NCBI RefSeq assembly: GCF_948948975.1
Contig: NZ_CARBVX010000028.1
Location: 1 to 18,658, forward strand
Reading direction: 5' to 3'
DNA from: an uncultured Lactobacillus sp.
Lineage (GTDB): Bacteria; Bacillota; Bacilli; Lactobacillales; Lactobacillaceae
Length of the DNA: 18,658 nucleotides
Position 1 is the stretch's first letter. Each line of letters opens with the position of its first letter. The notes beneath the pieces were generated by a model that ran no database searches, was not told the origin of the DNA, and saw only the letters and a program-made list of their open reading frames with translations. This document shows positions 5,823 through 17,602 of the stretch, in pieces. Position numbers and translations under genes: made by a program.

Positions 5823-6995
5823 ATGTCAAAATACTACACAAGCGGTGAATTTGCGAAGAAGGCGCATGTTTCAATTCGTACAATTCGCTATTATGATCAA
5901 AAAAATCTATTAAAACCATCAACCCACACGGCAAGTAGAGCAAGACGTTACACCGATGCTGATTTTGCTAAATTGCAACAAATCCTCCTACTAAAGTATC
6001 TTGGCTTTTCTTTAAGTGACATTCGAGAAATGACTTTAGGAACAGGAGACAGGCAGCTTTTACTTGATTCTCTCCAGATTCAAAAAAGACTAGTGGAAGA
6101 ACGCCTTAAAGAGATGCAGAATGTAGCTATTGCTATTGATTCGACTAGTAGCACCTTAAAAGCGGGAGAAGAAGTAGACTGGAATAAGATGCTAGATTTG
6201 ATCCATTTGACTTCAATGAATCAGTCCCTAAGTACTCAATACCAAAATGCTTCCAATATTTCTGCGCGAATCAAACTTCACCGAGATTATTCTCTTAATA
6301 AAGAGGGATGGTTCCACTGGTTGTTTAGACAACTAGACTTAAAGCCAGGGATGAAGATTCTAGAACTAGGTGCCGGTAATGGTACTTTATGGTCACAAAA
6401 TTTAAATAGAATTCCAAAAGAATTAACCATTGTTTTATCTGATATTTCTGAAGGTATCTTAGCTGATGCGAAAAGTGAAATTGGAGACAGACCAGAATTT
6501 CAATATGCCGTATTTGATGCACAAAAAATACCTTTTGCGGACAATACATTTGATTTGGTAATTGCTAACCATATGCTTTTCTACTGTGACAATATTCCTA
6601 AGACCTTGAAGGAAGTAAAGAGAGTAATGAAAACGGGCGCTTCTTTTGCTTGTTCTACTTATTCTAAGAGACATATGCATGAAATTACGGATCTAGTTCA
6701 AGAATTTAATCCAGAAATTGTTTTATCTTCAACTAATCTGTATGATCGCTTTGGCTTAGACAATGGAGCAGAAATTTTATCTCATGATTTTACGGATGTT
6801 ACCTGCCATAAGTATGAAGATGCGATTGAATTGTCTGAATCTACGCCAGTAATTTCCTACATCTTATCTTGTCATGGCAATCAGAGTTCAATTTTACTAG
6901 ATCACTATAATGAATTTAAAAATTACGTTGATGATAAAGTAAAAGATGGCTTTCACATAACTAAAGATGCAGGTTACTTTATCTGTAAGAAATAG
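5823..6995 (+). CDS. MerR-family regulator fused to a SAM-dependent methyltransferase
   Basis: The 390-aa protein starts with a clear MerR DNA-binding domain: YYTSGEFAKKAHVSIRTIRYYD (residues 4-25), then the wing RARRYTDADFAKL and GFSLSDIREM. A helical linker (about 80-110), the dimer coil in MerR proteins, follows. From about 160 comes a class I methyltransferase: motif I LELGAGNG at 180-187, an acidic strand end at SDISEG, PFADNTFDLVIANHMLFY at 237-254, and EVKRVMKTGA at 264-273, as in the Methyltransf_11 family. The C-terminus ends at residue 390. It probably acts in the cytosol as a ligand-responsive regulator that also methylates a small molecule or drug. The substrate is unknown. Shine-Dalgarno pairing before the ATG is weak. 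It is a monocistronic unit with a dyad before it and a strong terminator after it. Confidence 0.85.
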   Translation: MSKYYTSGEFAKKAHVSIRTIRYYDQKNLLKPSTHTASRARRYTDADFAKLQQILLLKYLGFSLSDIREMTLGTGDRQLLLDSLQIQKRLVEERLKEMQNVAIAIDSTSSTLKAGEEVDWNKMLDLIHLTSMNQSLSTQYQNASNISARIKLHRDYSLNKEGWFHWLFRQLDLKPGMKILELGAGNGTLWSQNLNRIPKELTIVLSDISEGILADAKSEIGDRPEFQYAVFDAQKIPFADNTFDLVIANHMLFYCDNIPKTLKEVKRVMKTGASFACSTYSKRHMHEITDLVQEFNPEIVLSSTNLYDRFGLDNGAEILSHDFTDVTCHKYEDAIELSESTPVISYILSCHGNQSSILLDHYNEFKNYVDDKVKDGFHITKDAGYFICKK

Positions 6996-9714: not shown

Positions 9715-10701
9715 ATGAAAGTTTTTGTAACTGGCGTTAATGGTCAACTTGGCCATGACGTAATGAATGAACTTGCTAAACGTGGCTATGAAGGTGTTGG
9801 ATCAGACCTAGCACCTGAGTATGCTGGTGTAGCTGACGGCACAGCTGTGACTAAAGCTCCATACGTTTCTTTAGATATTACTGATGCAGCCGCAGTAGAC
9901 AAGGCTATTTCTGAAGTAAATCCTGACGTGATTATTCACTGTGCTGCTTGGACTGCAGTTGACATGGCTGAAGATGATGACAAGGTAGCTGCTGTTCGCA
10001 AAGTTAACGTTGATGGAACTCAAAACATCGCTAATGTTGCTAAAAAGCTAGATGCCCCAATGGTTTACTTATCAACTGACTACGTCTTTGATGGTCAAGG
10101 AACTACTCCTTGGGAACCTGACTTTAAGGGTTACAAGCCATTAAATGTTTACGGTGAAACTAAGCTTGGTGGAGAAGAAGCTGTTGCTAATACCTTGGAC
10201 AAGTACTTCATCGTTCGTATTGCTTGGGTATTTGGTGTAAACGGATCTAACTTCATTAAAACTATGCTTAAAGTTGGTTCAAACCATGATGAAGTTAAGG
10301 TGGTTAGCGACCAAGTAGGTACACCAACTTATACTTTTGATTTAGCTCGTTTATTGGTAGACATGATTGAAACTGATAAGTATGGTTACTACCATGCAAC
10401 TAATGCTGAATTACCAGCAAGTGAAGGCGACCATGATGAAAATGGTACTAAGACCGGCTATATTTCTTGGTACGATTTCACTAAAGAAATCTATCGTCAA
10501 GCGGGCTACAAGACTAAGGTTACTCCTGTAACTACTGAAGAATATGGCTTATCAAAGGCTGTTCGTCCATTTAACTCTCGCTTAGACAAGAGTAAGTTAG
10601 AAGAAAACGGCTTTAAGCCACTTCCAACTTGGCCAGATGCTATTGGTCGGTATTTAGACATTTTAAAGGCCGACGGCCTCTTTGATGAGTTAGGGAAGTA
10701 A
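9715..10701 (+). CDS. rfbD: dTDP-4-dehydrorhamnose reductase
   Basis: This is the last step. It reduces dTDP-4-keto-L-rhamnose to dTDP-L-rhamnose with NAD(P)H. The 328-aa SDR protein has GVNGQLG at 7-13 for cofactor binding, STDYVFDG (Thr121, Asp122) and the YxxxK pair Tyr146/Lys150 in YGETK. It is longer than the roughly 280-300 aa typical of RmlD. Acidic stretches such as ASEGDHDENGTKTG (about 238-251) account for part of the extra length, as in other Lactobacillus copies. GAGG precedes the ATG with good spacing. Its end is followed within 30 bases by the operon terminator. With rfbB, rfbA and rfbC it completes the pathway. No glycosyltransferase follows, so rhamnose transfer must be encoded elsewhere. 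Confidence 0.93.
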   Translation: MKVFVTGVNGQLGHDVMNELAKRGYEGVGSDLAPEYAGVADGTAVTKAPYVSLDITDAAAVDKAISEVNPDVIIHCAAWTAVDMAEDDDKVAAVRKVNVDGTQNIANVAKKLDAPMVYLSTDYVFDGQGTTPWEPDFKGYKPLNVYGETKLGGEEAVANTLDKYFIVRIAWVFGVNGSNFIKTMLKVGSNHDEVKVVSDQVGTPTYTFDLARLLVDMIETDKYGYYHATNAELPASEGDHDENGTKTGYISWYDFTKEIYRQAGYKTKVTPVTTEEYGLSKAVRPFNSRLDKSKLEENGFKPLPTWPDAIGRYLDILKADGLFDELGK

Positions 10702-10730
10702 AGTTTCTTAGTTAAATAATACCGAATGTG

Positions 10731-10760
10731 AGATCAAGCAATTTTTGCTTGGTCTTTTTT
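10731..10760 (+). terminator. terminator of the rhamnose operon
   Basis: AGATCAAGCAA (10731-10741) pairs with TTGCTTGGTCT (10745-10755), with one G-T pair, and is followed by six T. It begins 30 bases after rfbD. The stem resembles that at 7000-7035 (both have GATCAAGCA), so the two units on either side of the rhamnose genes use related terminators. Confidence 0.85.
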
Positions 10761-10779
10761 GATGGGGAAAATTTTTAAG

Positions 10780-10785
10780 TATAAT
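10780..10785 (+). promoter_or_regulatory. -10 box upstream of the structured leader of the Abi gene
   Basis: This is a perfect TATAAT after the rhamnose terminator. The -35 is weak (TTTTGA at 17 bases). A transcript from here would start at about 10792 and begin with the long hairpin 10797-10852, so this is the natural promoter for a separate leader or noncoding RNA. Confidence 0.4.
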
Positions 10786-10791
10786 CTTACA

Positions 10792-10971
10792 GAGAAAAAT
10801 GTTTCAATAGAAACACCTTTCCAAATAAAAAGGTGTTTTTATTGAAACATTTCTATTGAAATTTATGGCAGTAAACTATAAACTATATTTAACAGATCAA
10901 GTTTAGAGGCCGTAGGAGTTAGGTTCTAAACTAAAGAAAGTCTTGGTATAATTTTTATATCAAGACTTTTC
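10792..10971 (+). ncRNA. candidate structured RNA upstream of the Abi gene (abiF-type antitoxin RNA?)
   Basis: Three hairpins follow in series. The first has 24-base arms (10797-10820 with 10829-10852) pairing throughout with one G-T. The second has arms AGTTTAGA and TCTAAACT (10900-10907, 10925-10932) closing a purine-rich loop that contains CGTAGGAGTTAGG. The third has 14-base arms (10937-10950 with 10956-10969, one G-T) followed by TTCTTTTT, which looks like an intrinsic terminator. A TATAAT box precedes the first hairpin, and no open frame of useful size is present. It is established knowledge that a conserved RNA, the abiF motif, occurs next to genes of this Abi family, and that Abi HEPN proteins have been linked to noncoding RNA partners. 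Assigning this RNA to that class is inference; I cannot run a covariance search. Confidence 0.5.
10924..10952 (+). promoter_or_regulatory. extended -10 promoter of the Abi-SIR2 unit, inside a hairpin
   Basis: TTCTAA (10924-10929) and TATAAT (10947-10952) are separated by 17 bases, and TG one base before the -10 makes it an extended -10 promoter. The -10 lies within the stem and loop of the third hairpin (10937-10969). The same DNA can therefore end the upstream RNA and start the Abi mRNA, with the dyad a possible repressor site. GGAG at 10977-10980 then serves the ATG at 10989. Confidence 0.5.
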
Positions 10972-10988
10972 TTTTTGGAGATTTTTAG

Positions 10989-11972
10989 ATGGAAGATACA
11001 AAACCTTTTAAAACTTATCGACAACAATTACGCATACTTAGAGCACGTGGATTAGAAGTCCCGACTGATGGGAAAGCTAAACAGGCTTTAGAAAGAATAG
11101 GCTATTATACTTTAATTAATGGATATAAACATTTGTTTTTAGCAAGAGATTCATATGGTAATATTATTCATCCAGAAAAGTTTATTCCGGGAGCTAGTTT
11201 CAGAGAAATAGTTGCTTTATATGATTTGGATAAAGAATTGAGGTCTATTCTTTATGATGGACTCCTAGCTTATGAGACAACTTTGGGTGCAGAAATTTCA
11301 TATTGTTTTTCAGAAAAATATCCTGAAAAACATGCATATTTGGCCATGGATAATTTTAGTACTAATCCAAATAAACTCCCTCAGATTTTAAAAACTATAA
11401 GTTCCTTGTCTAGTACGATAAATAGAAAAGCCTCAGAAAGACGAGATAATGCTATTAAACATTATGTTAATAATCATCGTCATGTACCCTTATGGGTGTT
11501 AGTAAATTTTTTAACTTTTGGAGATTTGAATTATTTCTATAGTAATTGTACAGAAGATGTAAAAGTTGCTGCTGCTAAGGCTTTTACAAAAAAGAGAAAA
11601 GAAGAATATGGGATAAAAAAGACACCTAGTTTAACTCCGGATGTTATAGAAACAATAAATCATATGGTTAATCATTTTAGAAATGCAGTTGCACATAATG
11701 AAATTACATATTCAAAATATATTTATAAATCGGCAAGATTAAAACCTATCAAAAGTATGCTTAATGATTCCAGTTTAGAATTACAAAGCCAAGCTGGAGT
11801 TTTTGAACTAATTATGAGTCTTAAACTAGTATTAGATAAACGTGAATATACAATACTAATTAAAAAAATGAAATCTCTTTTAGATTCATATCAGTATAGT
11901 TTTCAATCGGTTAGTTTTGATGGAATTTTACAGGATATGCACATTCCTCAAAATTATTCAGAGTATTTATAA
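10989..11972 (+). CDS. Abi_2 family (AbiD/AbiF-like) abortive-infection protein with a HEPN RNase motif
   Basis: The 327-aa protein matches the Abi_2 family of lactococcal AbiD/AbiF proteins. N-terminal hallmarks are KTYRQQLRILRARGLEV, ALERIGYYTLINGYKHLF (33-50) and FREIVALYDLDKELRSIL (71-88). In the middle comes HVPLWVLVNFLTFGDLNYFY (165-184), the most typical segment. The HEPN-type motif RNAVAHNE follows (Arg231, His236; R-x4-H), as in HEPN ribonucleases. The protein is probably a soluble toxin that cleaves RNA when phage infection is sensed. GGAG is spaced eight bases before the ATG. The structured region in front could encode its RNA antitoxin, and the SIR2 gene 41 bases downstream is probably co-transcribed. 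Base composition is far more AT-rich than the rhamnose genes, which suggests transfer. The family call is strong; the RNase role is inferred from the motif. Confidence 0.85.
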   Translation: MEDTKPFKTYRQQLRILRARGLEVPTDGKAKQALERIGYYTLINGYKHLFLARDSYGNIIHPEKFIPGASFREIVALYDLDKELRSILYDGLLAYETTLGAEISYCFSEKYPEKHAYLAMDNFSTNPNKLPQILKTISSLSSTINRKASERRDNAIKHYVNNHRHVPLWVLVNFLTFGDLNYFYSNCTEDVKVAAAKAFTKKRKEEYGIKKTPSLTPDVIETINHMVNHFRNAVAHNEITYSKYIYKSARLKPIKSMLNDSSLELQSQAGVFELIMSLKLVLDKREYTILIKKMKSLLDSYQYSFQSVSFDGILQDMHIPQNYSEYL

Positions 11973-12013: not shown

Positions 12014-15000
12014 ATGAAAAACTTTCGAGAAATAAATCATTCAGACTATAAAGAATTCATAAAAGATATTGTTCAGGCAAAAAAAAGTAGTTCATTATTT
12101 TGTTTTGTCGGAGCTGGAACATCTATTAGTCAGGGATTTCCAAATTGGAATGAATATGTAGATGGATTAATAGATTATTGGAGCTATCATTTAGAAGATA
12201 TTGTGGCTAATCCTAAAACAAAATTTTCTCAAGTCAAAGTTGCAGATAGAAGATATTTGCAGTGGTTAAAAAAGGTAAATTATTCTAAAGAGAGAAAAGT
12301 TGATTTAGTACACGAAATAATATCAGAGTATTCTCAATGTAATAATGCACGGGATTCTGCTACCATAGAGAAAAAATATATTCATCAATATGAGCAAACT
12401 GTGTTTATTGATTCCGAACCAATGCTTAAAGAAAATAAAATACTAAATGAATTGGTTAATCTACGTCCGATTTTTATTACTACTAATTATGATGAACAGA
12501 TAGAACGAGCATGTTTAGCAACAATAGGCTTGAAACCAACTGTTTATTCTAGTATCGACAAATATCATGGAGAAAAATTAATAACTGATGACGTTATTCA
12601 CTTACATGGTATGCCCAAAAGCATAGAAGATGTATTTATTAGCTCCTCTCAATCATATCTAAAAATGTATAATGAGAGAAATCAATATCGAGAACAGATA
12701 AAAAAATTATTTGCTTCAGTAAAGGATCCATTAATAATCTTTGTAGGATCTAGTTTACAAGAAGACGAGGTACTACATTTCTTAGATGTTGAAAACATTA
12801 AAGTTAGAAAATATGCAATTATGCTTTTTCAGACTGAGGGAAATGAACTTGATAATATTCGATCTATAAAGTTAAAGACATATTATTTAAATAGACAAGG
12901 AATTAGTCTTATTTGGTATGAAAAATCTTTTGATGATCTACCTGCTTTTTTAAAACAATTAAATAGGGATGTTGATTTAGAATTTAGTAAAGAAATTGTC
13001 GTTTCGGAAAAAGATCTAAAAAGTAAGGTTGATAATAACGAAAATCCAATACCAGAAATTTTAAAAGCAATAGCTAATCAAGAATTCATGATTGTGGATG
13101 AGTTCTTGGGAACGCTAAAAGAAGATTCAATACTAAATGACTTAATGAAGAATGATGAGTTTCTAAAGGTATTAAAGAGAGAGTCTAATCAACTTTTAGC
13201 ATTTTGGAATAATGTTGTAGAAAATTTTGATAAATTATCTTTAGAAGCACAAAAAAATGCTTTCCAAATTGTGAAAGCCGAGCAGTCGTCTAATTCAAAA
13301 CTAGCGAACTTAATGATTAGTATATCGCTTAAATTCTGGAAAAAATATTCTACCAGTAAAAAATGCGATTTTCTAAAAAATAATATAGAAAAATATTTAA
13401 CTCCGTATATTAGGGTAGAAGTACCAGATGACACAGTAAAATGTTTATATTTGATAGCTGCTCTTGGATTTAAATCATCTTATCCTATAGCAATAAATAC
13501 AGATCAAAGATTCAATTTTGATCAAGATACGTATTTATTATTAAGTAATGAATTACAAGAAATAGATAAAACTGGGATATTTTATAGTTCTTGGGAAAGT
13601 ATAAAAGATAGACAAGCTGTACGAATTCTATTTGATTTATGTAAGAAAGGAAACATTAGATACTTAAAAAGAAAAGATTTTCCAGCTAACTTTTATACAT
13701 ATAAGATTGTTCAAAAGATACTAGTAAACGTAGATTTAGCTGAGGTAAATTTAACAAAAAAAGTTAGGAAAAAATTATTTTCAAAAATTGATTGGAATTT
13801 TCAAAGTATTGGGAATGAATTTAATAAAATAAACAGAAAGTATATGCTGAATCCTGCCAAGAAATCTAATTATTTTCAAGATGGAATAGCAGATATCGGG
13901 GGAGTGGCAAGAGAAATTGATCAACTTCCCTTTTTTGAAATAAATATTGAAAAAGATATAAAAACGCCCAGTACTTTGTTAAACAACTTAGCTAACTCTA
14001 TTGGTGATACTAGTAAAATTAATTGGGACAATTTTACAGAAAAATCTTTGTCTGGTCAAAATAATGAATTAGTGAAGAAATTATGCGACGTTAATTTTTG
14101 GAGTAATTATTCAAGAGAGTACTTGAGCGTTATTATCGGACTGTTTGAAAATATTAGAATGTATAAATCATTTGATTATGCTATTGGCAAACTTATTAAT
14201 TTCGGTTTAGAAAATAATTTACCTAAAATAGATGAAATTGTTATGAAGTATATAGAATTTTTAGAAAGACATTTAGAGTTGGCATTTACATATCCGAATG
14301 ACTTTAATTTATGGGAAAAAATTCTAGAGTGTAAAAATATTGAAAATAAAGGCATTTATAAATTTTTGTTTAAAAAAGTTGAAATAAATAAATTAAATCT
14401 TTTGGTTCCTAAAAAAGACTATTTTGATATGCAGGATTATATGCAAACAGAATTTTTAAATTATTGTTATGTTTTAACAGTGATTAATGAATCTGACAAA
14501 ACTGTTCTAAGTAACTATATGCCCAAATTACTCAAAGAAATAAATAAAGCTGACATTAGTAAGCGTCAGGTCTTTAAAGGTATATTTTTTAATAGTATTT
14601 CATCAAAAGATGAGGAAAAATATAGCAAATTATCTTTATACTTTTTTATTAAATTTCATAATGGAATTAATGAAGAAATTTATTGCCTTTATAAAAAATC
14701 AATTGAATCTCTTTTAAAAGAAACGGTTAATGATCTAAACGTGATTAACTTTATTACAGCAATGATTTTACGATATGAGCAACCAACAACATCAACATTT
14801 ACTTTAATTACGCACTCTTCTTTTAGAAGTCAAATTTATAGGCTCATCTTTGACCTATATTGGGAGAGCGATGGCAGGCCCAAGTTTGCCACTCAATGGG
14901 TTAATCAATTAATTTTAGAAGATAAAATATTTATTTCTCAGAGTATTAGAACTATTGTTAGATATATCCGAGATGAAGAAGTTGATAAAACAAATTCTTT

Positions 15001-15301
15001 AATTAATATTTTAAAATCTTCAAATATAGAGCCTAATTATAAATTGAGAGAAGAAGATTTTATTATAATGACTTTTGTAAAAGAGTGCTCAAGAGAACAA
15101 TTAAAGAAGACAGTAGAGTTGATTAGGATTTTATGTGAAAAAGGGTATATGCATATTACTAAATTGATTGAAACTGAAATAGAAATTACTTTAAATAAAT
15201 TGCAGGAATATAATTTAGAAACAAAAAGTTTATTAGAATCATTAAAGCCATATACTAGATCACGTATATTTAGCGAATGGAACAGAAAGTATGGATGCTA
15301 A
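12014..15301 (+). CDS. large SIR2-domain protein, probable anti-phage NADase
   Basis: This is a 1095-aa protein with a SIR2 fold at about residues 15-320. NAD-binding FVGAGTS lies at 31-37 and QGFPNW just after. The catalytic-type Asn is in ITTNYDE (Asn158), the catalytic-type His in HLHG (His198), and FVGSSLQEDE at 243-252 corresponds to the GxS segment of the SIR2_2 group. The remaining 770 residues are charged, helix-rich and without a recognised domain, as in large defence proteins such as DSR1/DSR2, where the C-terminal part senses phage proteins and the SIR2 part destroys NAD. It lies 41 bases after the Abi gene, has no good Shine-Dalgarno, and is probably translated from the same mRNA. 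The next in-frame Met is far downstream, so the ATG at 12014 is the likely start. It is very AT-rich. The NADase role is inferred from intact motifs. Confidence 0.85.
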   Translation: MKNFREINHSDYKEFIKDIVQAKKSSSLFCFVGAGTSISQGFPNWNEYVDGLIDYWSYHLEDIVANPKTKFSQVKVADRRYLQWLKKVNYSKERKVDLVHEIISEYSQCNNARDSATIEKKYIHQYEQTVFIDSEPMLKENKILNELVNLRPIFITTNYDEQIERACLATIGLKPTVYSSIDKYHGEKLITDDVIHLHGMPKSIEDVFISSSQSYLKMYNERNQYREQIKKLFASVKDPLIIFVGSSLQEDEVLHFLDVENIKVRKYAIMLFQTEGNELDNIRSIKLKTYYLNRQGISLIWYEKSFDDLPAFLKQLNRDVDLEFSKEIVVSEKDLKSKVDNNENPIPEILKAIANQEFMIVDEFLGTLKEDSILNDLMKNDEFLKVLKRESNQLLAFWNNVVENFDKLSLEAQKNAFQIVKAEQSSNSKLANLMISISLKFWKKYSTSKKCDFLKNNIEKYLTPYIRVEVPDDTVKCLYLIAALGFKSSYPIAINTDQRFNFDQDTYLLLSNELQEIDKTGIFYSSWESIKDRQAVRILFDLCKKGNIRYLKRKDFPANFYTYKIVQKILVNVDLAEVNLTKKVRKKLFSKIDWNFQSIGNEFNKINRKYMLNPAKKSNYFQDGIADIGGVAREIDQLPFFEINIEKDIKTPSTLLNNLANSIGDTSKINWDNFTEKSLSGQNNELVKKLCDVNFWSNYSREYLSVIIGLFENIRMYKSFDYAIGKLINFGLENNLPKIDEIVMKYIEFLERHLELAFTYPNDFNLWEKILECKNIENKGIYKFLFKKVEINKLNLLVPKKDYFDMQDYMQTEFLNYCYVLTVINESDKTVLSNYMPKLLKEINKADISKRQVFKGIFFNSISSKDEEKYSKLSLYFFIKFHNGINEEIYCLYKKSIESLLKETVNDLNVINFITAMILRYEQPTTSTFTLITHSSFRSQIYRLIFDLYWESDGRPKFATQWVNQLILEDKIFISQSIRTIVRYIRDEEVDKTNSLINILKSSNIEPNYKLREEDFIIMTFVKECSREQLKKTVELIRILCEKGYMHITKLIETEIEITLNKLQEYNLETKSLLESLKPYTRSRIFSEWNRKYGC

Positions 15302-17002: not shown

Positions 17003-17197
17003 ATGAATTTTATTGATTTTTGTGCCTATACAATTTGTAGTGTAGGTATTATAGCTATATATTTTCTCTTAGGAGCAAAAATCATAAAATTGTTCGATGG
17101 AATATATAAAAAGTGGCCTTTTGTGATTCCATGGATTTTTGGTGGCTTGGCAATGGTACTGGGGCTTGCAGCATTTATTACTGCAAAGCTAAATTAG
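17003..17197 (+). CDS. unrecognised 64-aa two-helix membrane protein
   Basis: This small protein is made almost entirely of two membrane helices, about residues 8-30 and 40-61, joined by a short basic loop (KLFDGIYKKWP). No leader peptide or bacteriocin double-glycine motif is seen. Shine-Dalgarno pairing is weak, so translation may depend on the 30-codon frame just upstream. Its stop overlaps by nine bases the tail of the convergent minus-strand phage-like gene. Size and topology would fit a bacteriocin immunity protein, a holin-like protein or a small regulator; none is supported by a motif. Confidence 0.5.
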   Translation: MNFIDFCAYTICSVGIIAIYFLLGAKIIKLFDGIYKKWPFVIPWIFGGLAMVLGLAAFITAKLN

Positions 17198-17602
17198 TTG
17201 AATGATAAATTTCTTGGCAAATAATAAAAGAACTCTATTTTGTAATTTATTATATTGAGAAGAACTGTATTGAATTTTTAACACAACTTGCCATGCTGAA
17301 TGAAATTTTAAATATCGGTCAATAAGTATATTTTTATAAGGTGCATGTGGTCGATCAGGACATTTATTAATTGCTTGTTGAACATTCATGACAATCAAAT
17401 TTGCCTCAATTTGTTGGCTAATCAATTTTTCTAAGGCATCAGTCCGCCTAGTTTGGGTAACATATGGTTGAGTATAATCAATAGATTTTAATTCATAGTT
17501 TGTAAGGTCACTCAGATTAAGATAATTAGGATAATTGTAATTAAAGAATGATCTAATTCTTTGTAAAGTGGCCTTTCTATTAATATTGAGGGTTATTTTC
17601 AT
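17189..17602 (-). CDS. ArpU-like phage transcriptional regulator
   Basis: The 137-aa protein resembles the ArpU family of phage late-gene regulators, related to the DNA-binding end of sigma factors. The C-terminal segment, about residues 95-130, has the typical order DRYL, HSAWQVVLKI, QYSSSQYNKLQNRVLLLFA, in which the YSSSQYNKLQNRVLL part is the probable helix-turn-helix. The N-terminal 60 residues are less conserved. The length fits the family (about 130-160). No Shine-Dalgarno stands before the ATG and no other early start exists, so expression may be poor. It is alone, without terminase or lysis genes nearby, and converges on the 64-aa membrane ORF with a nine-base overlap. This suggests a prophage remnant. 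Confidence 0.6.
   Translation of the reverse strand: MKITLNINRKATLQRIRSFFNYNYPNYLNLSDLTNYELKSIDYTQPYVTQTRRTDALEKLISQQIEANLIVMNVQQAINKCPDRPHAPYKNILIDRYLKFHSAWQVVLKIQYSSSQYNKLQNRVLLLFAKKFIIQLI

Follow-up and report, generated by a model that had tools for sequence, protein, structure and literature searches.

What kind of element lies directly upstream of an Abi_2 gene, and does it encode an RNA partner of the Abi protein? The question is raised by a locus in an 18,658-nucleotide (nt) stretch of DNA from an uncultured Lactobacillus sp. (contig NZ_CARBVX010000028.1 of assembly GCF_948948975.1, forward strand), referred to here as the window. A preliminary description had proposed an antitoxin or guide-like RNA built of three hairpins. 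The analysis revealed a predicted small RNA and a HEPN-type Abi_2 gene that very probably belong together as an AbiF-type pair of RNA antitoxin and protein toxin, working by the mechanism set out below. A conserved RNA, covariation, linkage to one branch of Abi_2 proteins, an AbiF-like predicted fold, a catalytic motif and the placement of a terminator support this reading. The core of the locus is arranged as follows:

10892–10975, + strand: predicted AbiF-type small RNA of about 84 nt, comprising a covarying hairpin and an intrinsic terminator (fold z score, match to model R3)
10893–10936, + strand: conserved 44-nt hairpin, hairpin 2 of the preliminary description (alignments A2 and A7, covariation, matches to models R1, R2 and R3)
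10936–10976, + strand: intrinsic terminator (hairpin 3 and a T-rich tail, 10936–10970) between the RNA and the putative toxin gene (terminator scan)
10977–10980, + strand: ribosome-binding site (GGAG) 8 nt upstream of the ATG (direct reading)
10989–11972, + strand: open reading frame (ORF) of an Abi_2/AbiD-AbiF-type HEPN protein, probable RNase toxin (RNAVAH motif)

The hairpin beside Abi_2 genes

Residues 231–236 of the window Abi_2 protein read RNAVAH, which fits the RNxxxH (R-x4-H) catalytic motif of HEPN proteins, and the predicted structure has the AbiF fold; on motif and model, the protein is probably an RNase toxin. A tblastn search for Abi_2 in 397 Lactobacillaceae genomes gave a match at E ≤ 1e-20 in 31, with 48–68% identity in 13 of them. 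All 13 of these close loci have the hairpin directly upstream of the gene, and all 13 show a hairpin with a T tail at the position of the terminator (judged by eye). In the other 18 genomes, where the best Abi_2 is at most 40% identical, the 17 upstream regions that were read show other hairpin-like sequences by eye.

The 13 homologues were aligned with the window (alignment A2, n = 14) and model R1 was built from this alignment. The conserved hairpin consists of an outer stem (10900–10906 with 10926–10932) and an inner helix (10909–10911 with 10922–10924), and in the computed fold its arms span 10900–10908 and 10924–10932 and enclose a purine-rich loop with GGAG at 10915–10918. Four of the seven outer-stem pairs changed on both sides and 98.9% of outer-stem cells pair. 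The covariation score is 0.309; none of 500 shuffles (0.182) scored as high, and sliding gave no more than 0.129. The preliminary description had looked to homologues for compensatory changes, and the outer stem supplies them. Across 37 aligned sequences, phage copies included, pairing in this stem reaches 99.2%, and 43 changes on both sides were counted where shuffles predict 14.4; in the same sequences neither how many pairs show such changes (147 of 500 shuffles as high) nor how many pair types occur (500 of 500) exceeds the shuffles. AAGU, C, GA, UAGG and ACUA are invariant across the alignment, and the loop bases are among the least variable.

As R1 already contains the window, a further model (R3) was made that leaves out both the window and L009, its nearest relative. 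R3 matched the window hairpin at 45.2 bits (E = 6.7e-10) and L009 at 42.5 bits, and found nothing beyond these two at E ≤ 10 in a search of 22.6 kb. R1 and R3 each match the window once, the hairpin being present as a single copy. A 201-nt stretch of the locus is more stable than its shuffles (z = −8.2; 0 of 200 as good), as is 10892–10975 alone (z = −5.7; 0 of 200). At both L110 and L084, 1 of 200 shuffles was as good, and for the L053 stretch, which is cut inside its own terminator, 116 of 200 shuffles folded at least as well. Collectively, the 13 of 13 linkage, the stem covariation, the AbiF fold and the RNxxxH motif support the early proposal of an RNA partner, likely the antitoxin, of the Abi HEPN protein.

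Extent of the RNA, proposed mechanism and known systems

Three further features lie upstream of the conserved RNA:

10780–10785, + strand: TATAAT box (read in the sequence)
10797–10852, + strand: hairpin 1 of the preliminary description, a 24-bp near-palindrome outside the conserved RNA
10856–10884, + strand: probable sigma-70-type promoter of the RNA (TTGAAA 10856–10861, 17 nt, TAAACT 10879–10884)

The TATAAT box, three hairpins, T-rich tail and adjoining Abi_2 ORF described earlier are all present in the sequence, in a stretch that is unusually stable. The three-hairpin unit of 180 nt did not survive comparison, the conserved part being only about 84 nt, with hairpin 2 and the terminator recurring in homologues. 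That the functional unit is nonetheless the 180-nt RNA, driven from the TATAAT at 10780, is very unlikely: both the box and hairpin 1 are real and nearly identical in genome G433, but uninterrupted stems within 150 nt upstream of the RNA reach at most 6–14 bp in the 13 homologues, compared with 24 bp in the window, and in 10 of the 13 a −10-like hexamer (from a list drawn up by the analyst) ends only 8–10 nt upstream of the conserved RNA, before its GATC. The window hexamer TAAACT lies 10 nt before GATC, with the same spacing in L009. The promoter at 10856–10884 has 9 of 12 consensus positions in a consensus scan, and the position of this promoter would place the start of the RNA at about 10891–10892; a longer transcript starting near 10792 may also be made. 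Terminator-like matches in the region are above chance (three compared with 0.5 in shuffles), one of the three being hairpin 1 itself.

Hairpin 1, located between rmlD and the RNA promoter, has 24 uninterrupted pairs (10797–10820 with 10829–10852), of which the minimum-energy fold shows 23. Among 61 Lactobacillus genomes, one (G433) gave a strong DNA match, of 96% identity and located at the end of a contig, and 12 others gave weak matches; a dispersed repeat was rejected on these counts. By reading, the G433 copy of the palindrome has two arm changes, with pairing kept by G-U or A-U. Most of the best among 45 Rfam matches at E ≤ 10 were to microRNA families; these fit the palindrome, none reached its gathering score, and they were set aside.

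We infer transcription, binding, neutralization and a phage trigger; the scheme of read-through and RNA binding is drawn by analogy with AbiF-Cd/RCd22 and AbiD1. Transcription would start just before 10893 and most transcripts would stop at the terminator, at about 10970, yielding the small RNA. As the terminator precedes the toxin gene, read-through is required for an abi mRNA; this would occur occasionally, and the mRNA would be translated from its own ribosome-binding site. The RNA hairpin would bind an Abi dimer and hold the RNase inactive, until phage infection led to loss of the short-lived RNA and freed the toxin.

A close parallel is AbiF-Cd/RCd22 of Clostridioides difficile, for which PMC12373285 describes an RNA that ends at a terminator and a read-through that gives the toxin mRNA. 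This pair and the Rfam abiF family (RF03085) share with the window a small RNA and terminator directly upstream of Abi_2, read-through co-transcription and the HEPN RNxxxH motif; they differ in having two hairpin copies where the window has one, and in the conserved loop, which here is GGAG-UAGG. The Abi protein of phiC2 is about 22–27% identical to that of the window, and PbAbiF, seen with AbiFr in PDB entry 8vz6, 18–22%. The window locus has the components of an AbiF-type pair, namely an Abi_2 HEPN protein with R-x4-H and the AbiF fold, and a conserved RNA and terminator before the toxin gene, and its RNA shares with RF03085 the trait of lying upstream of abiF/Abi_2 genes. The expected match to the Rfam abiF covariance model did not appear in the window, either at gathering or at E ≤ 10, though phiC2, the positive control, matched at 37.6 bits. 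Among 16 loci given to this model, eight of them Abi-linked and of the window type, only the control was matched. By sequence and analogy, the window RNA thus appears to act like abiF RNA yet to lie outside RF03085 as modelled. It adds a group missed by that model to the AbiF pairs, the proposed root of Cas13, and because window-type RNAs are missed, counts of the RNAs that partner Abi_2 proteins are probably too low.

Several observations weigh against the AbiF-type pair. In alignment A2 pair types are no more numerous than in shuffles (227 of 500 as high), and none of the three pairs of the inner helix shows a compensatory change. RF03085 is absent among the 45 Rfam matches at E ≤ 10 in 10690–11050. 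The region has 6 promoter-like matches, which does not exceed chance (7.6 in shuffles), the window promoter is weak, and three of the 13 homologues (L011, L015 and L016) have no −10-like hexamer at the place of the RNA promoter. Finally, several chromosomal copies lack a toxin, and the link between the RNA and Abi_2 is therefore not a strict one.

The terminator immediately before the abi gene also suits another reading, in which the RNA would act purely in cis, as a terminator/attenuator leader holding abi expression down as in AbiD1 of Lactococcus lactis, with no antitoxin action in trans. AbiD1 resembles the window, as compared by description, in that a terminator ahead of the gene cuts the transcript short, and PMC2661086 describes control by read-through and by translation. 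AbiD1, which PMC12373285 groups with AbiF, differs in that its published mechanism is translational control switched on by a phage protein rather than an RNA antitoxin. A plain attenuator needs no covarying 44-nt hairpin with an invariant loop upstream of its terminator, and phages that retain the hairpin without the gene would be unexpected, making this alternative unlikely.

Cas13-type guided systems carry a variable spacer next to a constant RNA repeat. An RNA that steers the HEPN protein to target RNAs in this manner is extremely improbable here: no variable spacer exists within the motif, whose hairpin and loop are conserved, and with loop bases among the most invariant positions the guide-like role suggested at the outset finds no footing.

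Copies of the hairpin in phages and chromosomes

Copies of the hairpin without a detectable Abi_2 gene, in phages and viral contigs, are a new finding; a literature search, whose coverage did not extend to the Cell 2025 AbiF paper or the 2017 motif paper, found no mention of such phage RNA copies. In the 397 genomes, R1 matched 27 places in 25 genomes: the 13 Abi-linked loci used to build it, one with an Abi remnant (L059), 12 toxin-less (two of them identical, in one genome) and one probably due to chance (L062). Toxin-less here means no Abi_2 within about 1.5 kb by tblastn with 120 close Abi_2 proteins at E ≤ 1e-4, from which a distant Abi_2 could escape. An R1 search of the order matched nine of 395 genomes, namely six already known, G105 (already judged chance), L144 and L145. 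The matches L062, L144 and L145 lie inside ORFs or in coding-like sequence and were rejected as chance, so R1 E-values near 1e-3 were not trusted alone.

Pattern scans of IMG/VR gave 33 loci, of which five lie upstream of an intact or contig-cut Abi_2 and 25 are toxin-less and directly follow a tRNA-like sequence; of the remainder, L080 is undecidable at a contig end, L086 has a 20-residue Abi remnant, and L099 is toxin-less with no tRNA-like sequence. Short BLAST searches with the motif gave no match in phages and three plasmid records (best E 0.8); a longer query, from one toxin-less locus, found 26 annotated phage records, and an L084 query six marginal matches in Bacillus and Lysinibacillus phages. 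The hairpin is present in 9 of 12 Lacticaseibacillus phages examined (J-1, CL1, CL2, R24.2, JNU_P9, Lrm1, Lc-Nu, MLC-A and iLp1308), that of JNU_P9 being degenerate, at background level with R1 (E 0.3) and recognized by eye. The other three, phages A2 (L111), LJ (L114) and phiAT3 (L115), have no hairpin and keep the tRNA-like sequence and/or terminator, a natural presence/absence polymorphism. A 30-nt loop insertion is common to Lrm1 (L112), Lc-Nu (L116), MLC-A (L117) and iLp1308 (L119), and an exact string of it occurs in five IMG/VR contigs (L146–L150), three of which match iLp1308, Lc-Nu and Lrm1 in record length.

A model built only from 13 distinct phage orphans (R2) recognized every one of the 14 Abi-linked loci. 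It scored the window at 22.6 bits (E = 0.0077 in 241 kb), and each of its 29 matches at E ≤ 10 falls at a motif position or, in L022, on a related compact hairpin. R2 missed L058 and L059, both matched by R1. Models from either set thus recognize the other, showing the Abi-linked and phage hairpins to be homologous. Among Lactobacillus phages, tblastn at E ≤ 1e-5 found Abi_2 in three records (iA2 twice and JNU_P5), none a Lacticaseibacillus phage, so the hairpin-carrying phages have no detectable Abi_2.

A T-arm sequence lies within 32 nt upstream of all 37 phage copies, 0 of 19 Abi-linked copies and 0 of 12 other orphans, although the T-loop expression behind this count was tuned to these very sequences, several of them near-duplicates of one another (for example L053/L077 and L104/L113). 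An acceptor/T-arm pairing score that was not so tuned reached p ≤ 0.02 for 20 of the 37 phage copies and for none of the 31 others. Loose promoter matches showed the converse distribution (no phage copies, 13 Abi-linked, five other orphans). L038, scored negative for the T-arm, nonetheless follows tRNA-Ser. Of 13 phage loci given to the Rfam tRNA model, three (L061, L092 and L096) had a match at gathering score immediately before the RNA, and ARAGORN found a tRNA in one of five (L061); with so few matches, many of the tRNA-like sequences are degenerate or unusual tRNAs. That of CL2 is annotated tRNA-OTHER. Over 29 copies, mean pairwise identity was 94% for the hairpin, a value inflated since most copies were found by pattern, compared with 41% for the 75 nt upstream; the hairpin seems to behave as a module that is kept while its tRNA partner is swapped.

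Phage PhiTE carries an antitoxin-RNA copy without a toxin, pseudo-ToxI, and the Lacticaseibacillus phages likewise hold a homologous RNA without the toxin gene. According to PMC3475682, PhiTE escapes ToxIN through an expressed ToxI mimic, the active form having arisen under laboratory selection from an incomplete locus, and the phage hairpins fit the same idea. ToxI itself is a tandem-repeat pseudoknot. Tandem repeats of the ToxIN type are absent from the window (one R1 and one R3 match); the element here is a single hairpin, which many phages have retained in association with tRNA-like sequences. By this analogy, the orphan RNA of Lacticaseibacillus and related phages, including the classic Yakult phage J-1, might be a standing counter-defense, its correct 5' end freed by tRNA 3'-end processing and its hairpin titrating and silencing host Abi_2 RNases. 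The chance of this is a little below even, and we infer the neutralizing, anti-Abi activity of the phage copies by analogy. If they are antitoxin mimics, they would represent a naturally maintained RNA-only answer to HEPN defense, coupled to phage tRNAs, in well-known dairy phages. Against counter-defense, a class-A Abi_2 (52% identity) occurs in only one of 30 Lacticaseibacillus genomes, 10 others of the 30 having only distant matches (22–32%).

This rarity would also suit phage orphans that are regulatory RNAs of the phage or relics of lost abi loci, an explanation that is quite possible if somewhat doubtful. Relic-like orphans exist in L059, with 38 residues of Abi_2, and L086; in both decayed loci the RNA is still there, which suggests that the toxin was lost first. 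The phage locus also lies near the switch to late genes: in J-1, CL2 and L053 the RNA is flanked by an ArpU-type late-activator gene on one side and, on the other, by genes that lead to packaging. The T-arm confined to phage copies, and the hairpin kept while the sequence upstream was replaced, argue against relics or regulatory RNA, with the tuning and inflation noted above.

Related RNAs and neighboring genes

A second conserved RNA was observed upstream of a different Abi_2 branch at 13 loci (L024–L035 and L037), with a consensus around CUCUACGGAG..CU.UUGCGG followed by a terminator; the Abi_2 proteins there are about 27–30% identical to that of the window (40% in L033). The three of these loci given to Rfam (L026, L028 and L034) had no match at gathering, and RNAalifold found only three inner pairs, two with compensatory change. 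A pattern for this RNA hit nine loci in viral contigs, possibly by chance. A compact form in L005, L006, L021 and L022 (Streptococcus phages and lactobacilli) has one hairpin with a T-run that seemingly serves as both RNA and terminator, as in L022 (GAUCAAGUCUAGG...CCUAGGCU), with weak scores (E 1 with R1, 0.22 with R2).

The cassette directly follows rmlD in the window. In L009, which is L. rodentium by an identical protein (P0002), the cassette likewise follows the end of rmlD (77% over the last 53 residues), and in G369 a nearly full rmlD (91%) precedes the decayed copy L059.

A large SIR2_2-domain protein of 1095 residues with a ThsA-like N terminus (12014–15301) begins 41 nt after the Abi_2 gene. 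A single RNA-SIR2-Abi system was rejected: no SIR2 relative was found at the other Abi_2 loci fetched (tblastn, E ≤ 1e-5; about 1.5 kb of flank for most of the whole-genome loci), and SIR2 was therefore taken as a neighbor. Elsewhere in the window, an ArpU-like protein (17189–17602, minus strand; TIGR01637 at 39.2 bits, below the 43.1 cut-off) makes a prophage remnant possible at the window end, and 5823–6995 encodes a MerR-type regulator fused to a methyltransferase domain.
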